The notes beneath the pieces are model-generated. The model had not been told where the DNA came from. It did no database searches and worked only from the letters and a program-made list of their open reading frames with translations. Positions 1-39,097 of a stretch of DNA of 64,000 nucleotides are shown in pieces. The stretch is from contig SVBH01000004.1 of assembly GCA_015058985.1 (NCBI GenBank), positions 34,236 to 98,235 of the forward strand, in the 5' to 3' direction. The stretch is from Erysipelotrichaceae bacterium (GTDB lineage: Bacteria > Bacillota_I > Bacilli_A > RFN20 > DUOF01). Numbering within the stretch: the first letter of the stretch is position 1; every line of letters starts with the position of its first letter. The translations under genes were made by a program, and so were the position numbers.

Positions 1-97
1 TACAATCATCTCCATTTTTATTATTATACCACACTAAAATGTTTTTTCTTTTTTATTTTAGTAAATAATAATATAATAAGTAAAATGAGGTATCGAT

Positions 98-10073: not shown

Positions 10074-10093
10074 GTTGTTAGTTTCCTAACAAC
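10074..10093 (-). terminator. terminator of the PH-domain gene
   Basis: GTTGTTAG-TTTC-CTAACAAC, minus-strand T6 tail. Confidence 0.8.
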
Positions 10094-10095
10094 AA

Positions 10096-10488
10096 TTAAT
10101 TATGGATTATACTAGTAGTATTTTCTTTAGTAATTATCTTAGATTCAAGATATTCAGCTAATCCTTGAGGGTCTTTAACATTCTTAGTATTGATATCCCA
10201 TCTACCAGTTACATCAACCTTAACATCACCAAATCCTAAAATTCTTCCTAACCATCTTTGATCAACATAAACACTAGTTACCCCTAAAAAAGCACTTTTC
10301 CTTGTCTTTTTATTGATGATTCCAGATTTACTTATAACTTGGTTTTCATAGAATTCAATTCTTTCACTCTTTAAAACAAAAAGATCAATTACCATCAATA
10401 CTACTGGAACAATCAACCAACAAAATACAACTCTCATCAAAGTAATTGCAGCCCATGCACTTTTAGTTGCCACGTATTCAGCTTTCAT
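10096..10488 (-). CDS. PH-domain (bPH2/YdbS-like) membrane protein
   Basis: N-terminal TM region then RIEFYENQVISKSGIINKKTRKSAFLGVTSVYVDQRWLGRILGFGDVKV. Confidence 0.7.
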   Translation of the reverse strand: MKAEYVATKSAWAAITLMRVVFCWLIVPVVLMVIDLFVLKSERIEFYENQVISKSGIINKKTRKSAFLGVTSVYVDQRWLGRILGFGDVKVDVTGRWDINTKNVKDPQGLAEYLESKIITKENTTSIIHN

Positions 10489-10522
10489 TATAAATCCCTC
10501 ATTTCCTTATTTTTCTGTAATA

Positions 10523-10553
10523 AGTATACCCCCCCCCGCTTCCTTTTTGTCAA
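10523..10553 (-). promoter_or_regulatory. promoter TTGACA-N19-TATACT with G9 homopolymer in the spacer
   Basis: minus strand TTGACAAAAAGGAAGCGGGGGGGGGTATACT; -10 at 10523-10528, -35 at 10548-10553; ATG 35 nt downstream of the -10. Confidence 0.75.
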
Positions 10554-10629
10554 CATAAAAAAAACGAACTTATCTAGATCGTTTTATATTAATTTAATCA
10601 CCAATCATATAATACCATAAAACAAAAAA

Positions 10630-10651
10630 GAACCCTTCTTTCGAAGAGTTC
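10630..10651 (-). terminator. terminator of the 5-tRNA operon
   Basis: minus strand GAACTCTTC-GAAA-GAAGGGTTC-TTTTTT. Confidence 0.85.
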
Positions 10652-39060: not shown

Positions 39061-39097
39061 AAAAAAAGCAAAAGGGTTACCCCCCCCTGCTTTTTTT
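39061..39097 (-). terminator. terminator with G8 tract in the hairpin
   Basis: minus strand AAAAAAAGCA-GGGGGGGGTAACCCTTT-TGCTTTTTTT. Confidence 0.65.

Follow-up and report, generated by a model that had tools for sequence, protein, structure and literature searches.

The window, that is, the whole stretch of 64,000 nucleotides analysed here, contains a minus-strand gene for a small PH-domain membrane protein that lies downstream of a tRNA operon. The features of the locus are listed below, with the source of each in brackets.

10548..10553, minus strand: -35 hexamer TTGACA, 6/6 (sequence and promoter scoring)
10538..10547, minus strand: non-repeat part of the spacer, AAAAGGAAGC (sequence)
10529..10537, minus strand: G9 tract (sequence and assembly run count)
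10523..10528, minus strand: -10 hexamer TATACT, 5/6 (sequence and promoter scoring)
10496..10500, minus strand: Shine-Dalgarno-like GAGGG, 7 nt 5' of the ATG (read directly)
10096..10488, minus strand: gene for a 130-aa bPH_2 (PF03703) membrane protein, the presumed switch target (translation and Pfam)
10074..10093, minus strand: terminator-like hairpin and T run 3' of the PH gene (terminator scan)
10630..10651, minus strand: terminator of the upstream tRNA Ile-Asn-Glu-Thr-Leu operon (terminator scan)
10557..10585, minus strand: weaker second hairpin and T run (AAAACGA...TCGTTTT-TTTT) just 5' of the -35 hexamer (read directly, absent from the terminator scan)

Upstream of the gene, a well-matched -35/-10 pair has a homopolymer in its spacer, which is 19 nt long in total and ends in G9 on the minus strand; the ATG at 10488 is 34 nt downstream of the -10 hexamer. 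The pair scored 11/12, and every other promoter-like pair in 10489-10630 scored at most 7/12; between the upstream terminators and the ATG, no promoter other than TTGACA/TATACT is credible. It is insulated, because the terminator of the tRNA operon sits upstream. Since a terminator-like hairpin follows the PH gene, the gene is probably monocistronic. An earlier reading made from the letters of this DNA (the sequence-only reading) had given the sequence and coordinates of the promoter and its 19-nt spacer exactly to the base, and had called both hexamers near-perfect.

The protein matched PF03703 at residues 48-114 (E = 4.7e-8; 33.6 bits vs a Pfam gathering cut-off of 22), and its translation has a hydrophobic N-terminal stretch. 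NCBIfam gave no useful name for this protein or for the array proteins described below. The gene is single copy in its own genome. Homologs were patchy and distant: within the order, 15 other genomes have them, at 21-34% identity, and a search of genome contigs gave one further distant homolog in a Clostridia MAG (38% identity). No homolog was found in the family genomes G001-G003. The tRNA cluster is conserved in G001 and G003, and in G001 a different gene adjoins it. Because of this other neighbour and the lack of a homolog in the three family genomes, the PH gene and its promoter look like a local gain. A DNA search with the region upstream of the gene matched the tRNAs only and not the promoter, and the exact promoter DNA pattern had 0 matches in viral contigs.

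The promoter scan upstream of the PH homologs covered L208, L209, L005 and L210-L214, with L215-L219 left out. L208 has TTGACT-17-TAAAAT and no G tract, and L209, which is close to it, has no clear 17-nt pair. The distant homolog L038 has TTGACA-17-TATACT, also free of a G tract, with a -10 hexamer identical to that of the window. At L038:4900-5000 the promoter spacer is palindromic (ATCACGTTTTTCGTGAT) and stands beside a divergent HTH-regulator-like gene, so the PH gene family may elsewhere be under repressor control. In G012 (L112:5579-6028), a poly-G promoter precedes a gene whose protein has a weak, below-cut-off match to bPH_3 (E = 0.066) and is possibly a second PH-domain target.

The tract in its own genome

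The assembly comprises 836,898 b with a GC content of 29%. A run count over all contigs showed that no other G or C run in the whole assembly is as long as this G9. Four runs reach at least six (G6, G7, C8 and G9), while runs of five number 69 and runs of ten 0. The tract had been described as atypical for such AT-rich DNA, and the count bears this out. Sites of the form TTGACA-15..20-TA...T (at least 5/6) occur 16 times in the 1.67 million strand positions of this genome. Because there are only 16 such sites, the probability that a given tract lies in such a spacer by chance is about 1e-4.

The C8 run, at 39080-39087 of the window on the plus strand, is the only other G/C run of at least eight in the assembly. 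It sits in a strong terminator-like hairpin upstream of rpsL (-23.8 kcal/mol, z = -5.6), not in a promoter, and slippage in it could alter that terminator.

Poly-G promoters in the order and class and their target genes

We found that the pattern TTGACA-N-G7+-N-TATANT had 42 matches in 21 of the 279 genomes of the order, and that the reversed-pattern control had 0 in every one of them. A poly-C control (C7 for G7) gave a single match with a 27-nt spacer and no promoter, and a poly-C variant of the promoter was rejected for this reason. The class scan gave poly-G promoters in 37 of 395 genomes (control, 0). A phylum-level scan added little, because every sampled genome belonged to this same class. 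The family has four genomes, and the window promoter is the only poly-G promoter among them. A G18 tract lies between TTGACA and TATATT at G675:C7:8293-8330, in a small-genome family otherwise without poly-G promoters. In the open-licence full-text literature, we found no earlier description of such promoters for this group.

A census of tracts of at least G8 was taken in 15 genomes, namely the window's own, three family members and eleven picked for having matches. Promoter spacers accounted for 49 of the 98 tracts, a share that holds for such genomes and not for the whole order because of the way the eleven were picked. Flank shuffles gave an expectation of 1.1 promoter spacers (maximum 5 in 300), and the opposite orientation gave 1. 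This shuffle census and the per-tract probability given above reject a chance origin.

The genes downstream of poly-G promoters were then compared with their neighbours. TM or signal segments were called by a simple rule on hydropathy instead of a trained predictor; 82% of 84 downstream genes had such a segment, vs 41% of 244 neighbours (P = 3.5e-11). The targets are thus mostly envelope or surface genes, and the bPH_2 protein of the window with its hydrophobic N-terminus is of the same kind. BspA-type LRR lipoproteins and Ig-like-domain proteins are among them.

Gene families with one poly-G promoter per gene were found in G601, G298, G495, G489 and G371. In G601, seven MKNLKMF... secreted-protein genes occupy one 19-kb stretch (L240, L241; G601:C6), six of them about 2 kb apart, and every gene has TTGACAAAT[TC]GAATAC-G8/9-TATAAT; the two array proteins tested had no Pfam match. 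Three tandem secreted-protein genes of G298 (L244; G298:C5) have TTGACAGAC-Gn-TATGTGTTATACT with n = 9, 11 and 10. Four copies are found in each of G495, G489 and G371, every copy with its own poly-G promoter.

Tract length, promoter spacing and the explanations weighed

Within the lineage, tract length varied between promoters that resemble each other. Of 52 such pairs, from paralogs or sister species, 25 were unequal in tract length, although pairs inside one array are included and are not independent. Promoters whose 40 flanking nt are free of substitutions were one G apart in G601 (G8/G9), G495 (G8/G9) and G371 (G9/G10), and the copies in G298, which have 2-3 substitutions between them, carry G9, G10 and G11. 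Orthologs of 93% identity in G054 and G108 have G9 vs G10; they come from a zinc-ribbon set of 6 genomes, which is too small for a wide promoter comparison. Judged by these sequence comparisons, slippage occurs in this lineage at poly-G promoters. Full-length MutS1 was found in the window's own genome and in 19 of 20 tested genomes, and lost mismatch repair was rejected as the cause of the tracts on the latter count. Because MutS1 is full-length in the window's genome, slippage rates need not be extreme.

We then examined promoter spacing. Near-consensus promoters upstream of 499 SD-ATG starts of the window's genome had a spacing of 17 nt in 50 cases vs 8 in the reversed control; 25 were at 16 nt, 21 at 18 nt and 16 at 19 nt (control 10). 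A separate genome-wide spacing count for this genome also gave 17 nt. In the window promoter, G7, G8 and G9 correspond to spacers of 17, 18 and 19 nt. With the peak of the genome at 17 nt, the best length should be G7, with G9 away from the optimum, and the earlier claim that G7 restores the 17-nt optimum agrees with this. By geometry, slippage would thus move the spacing through the optimum of the organism.

The poly-G promoters of the class peak at 18-19 nt, whereas ordinary promoters at the same loci peak at 17 nt. Spacers of 18-20 nt were found in 61 of 83 poly-G promoters vs 15 of 74 ordinary promoters, and the spacer lengths of poly-G promoters range over 13-21 nt. Either most copies have been caught in an OFF or low state, or G-rich spacers shift the optimum or tolerate a longer one. 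The Treponema tp0126 promoter argues for an ON spacing of 17 nt (PMC7864442). The sequence-only reading had proposed that G9 is OFF and that the gene is ON at G7-G8. The optimum of the own genome favours this proposal, but the longer spacers of the class make it doubtful.

Based on these sequence data, we put at about 0.8 the probability that the G9 tract is a length-variable spacer in the sigma-A-type promoter of the PH gene, that it switches expression, and that it is one of a lineage-wide set. Replication slippage would add or remove Gs in the tract, and the -35 to -10 distance would shift around the 17-nt optimum. Transcription of the PH gene would then alternate between a stronger and a weaker state, and each change would be heritable and reversible. 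The window promoter would be one of the poly-G spacer promoters that are dispersed over the order and class and mostly drive membrane or secreted proteins. A length-switch promoter had been claimed before. The class-wide recurrence without reversed controls and the length differences between otherwise identical promoters support the claim for the lineage; for the window locus itself, we infer that the tract would vary within the species and that transcription of the PH gene would change with it. Heterogeneous expression of envelope proteins under host, phage or bacteriocin pressure may be the selective reason.

We give only a small chance to fixed promoter tuning, in which a stable G tract sets constant expression through the length or stiffness of the spacer, with no useful switching. 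In several genomes, tract length is unequal between promoters whose flanks are identical, the spacer lengths are widely spread, and a plain spacer needs no unbroken G8-G11 run in DNA of this GC content. These facts outweigh the points that suit fixed tuning, namely that the class peak may reflect an optimum that is shifted in G-rich DNA, that MutS1 is present, and that some orthologs keep equal lengths (G10 in G033 and G027, G8 in G020 and G015).

It is highly unlikely that the tract is a site for a regulator that binds G-rich DNA, or forms a G-quadruplex or other structure, instead of acting as a ruler. This would fit the strict strand bias, with G on the non-template strand, and the conserved context AAC-Gn-TA, but the same context is also found inside genes, and a single run of G8-G11 falls short of what an intramolecular quadruplex usually needs. 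Moreover, the tract directly follows the -35 hexamer in G495 and G298 and directly precedes the -10 hexamer in most others. Because its position differs between groups, what all of these promoters share is spacing, and a fixed binding site was rejected.

Scarcely credible is a spurious G run beside promoter-like sequence, by chance or as an assembly artefact. This reading is largely refuted by the recurrence of the architecture in dozens of other genomes, where reversed controls gave 0, and is also opposed by the low chance per tract and by ordinary sequence on both flanks. In its favour, this is a single MAG in whose consensus the exact tract length may be off by one because homopolymers are error-prone.

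Known systems and the context of the tracts

To our knowledge, almost all promoter switches known to work by slipped-strand mispairing are those of pathogens (Neisseria, Treponema, Mycoplasma). In Treponema pallidum, the promoter of tp0126, which encodes an OmpW homolog, has poly-G in the -35/-10 spacer and is best transcribed at 17-nt spacing, and the related tprL promoter has G7-G11 within isolates, mostly G9 (PMC7864442). The window promoter likewise has poly-G between the -35 and -10 hexamers. Unlike tp0126, which has an outer-membrane target in a spirochaete, it belongs to a PH-domain membrane protein in an AT-rich genome with few tracts, and is known here from sequence. In Neisseria meningitidis, porA has poly-G in this spacer, and one G gained or lost changes transcription (PMC3899988, PMC7864442). 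The poly-G spacer is shared, but porA encodes a Gram-negative porin, and the C-Gn-T context is that of the present lineage and not part of the cited porA descriptions. Two Neisseria genes had been proposed as parallels. That with porA stands, and that with opc is loose, because the poly-C tract of opc covers the -35 hexamer itself (PMC7864442). By analogy of architecture, porA and tp0126 are the right parallels. The kind of promoter is known from these two, and what is new here is the spread of poly-G spacer promoters through a lineage.

In Mycoplasma hyorhinis, the length of a promoter poly-A tract switches the vlp surface lipoproteins, with one switch per family gene, and in M. mycoides a dinucleotide repeat in the promoter spacer switches the surface lipoprotein vmm (PMC10502178). 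The arrays of G601 and G298 are like vlp in having one switch per gene; unlike vlp and vmm, the present lineage uses poly-G. MutS1 is present in the window's genome, whereas mycoplasmas, as far as we know, lack MutS.

YdbS and YdbT, which we take to be bPH_2 membrane proteins and so to share a Pfam domain family with the PH protein of the window, come from a SigW-regulated operon. The likeness is one of domain family only, and we know of no poly-G at YdbST. In Bacillus subtilis, YdbST protects against amylocyclicin (PMC8144471).

The results indicate that mostly uncultured, AT-rich relatives of the window's organism use this device on dozens of genes for membrane or surface proteins, among them tandemly arrayed secreted paralogs that each have their own switch. 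Phenotypic heterogeneity could thus be predicted from the sequence of these bacteria and tested for in metagenomic reads that already exist.

Long tracts have a characteristic context. C precedes 51 of 57 long promoter tracts and 34 of 49 others, but only 4-7% of the G3-G5 runs of the window's genome. T follows long G tracts far more often than short G runs, both inside and outside promoters. In one genus, the AAC-Gn-TA context surrounds tracts both in promoters and elsewhere, and several of these tracts lie in coding sequence. We know of no mechanism for the preceding C or for AAC-Gn-TA. A dedicated lineage-wide poly-G phasome in this mostly uncultured, small-genome class has, in our view, a small chance of being correct; a sequence-specific process that recognises or leaves AAC-Gn-TA would make or keep the tracts, with G always on the non-template strand at promoters, in promoters and coding sequences alike.

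Long G tracts in AAC-Gn-TA context were also seen in or near the start of coding sequences (for example L176:812, L177:236, L154 and L171), in genera with many poly-G promoters. In these, the frame is open at one tract length and meets an early stop at others, which resembles translational phase variation. At L151:1502 (G001), a G8 tract occupies the Shine-Dalgarno position (AGAGGGGGGGGTGAAATAATG) and is a possible translational length switch.
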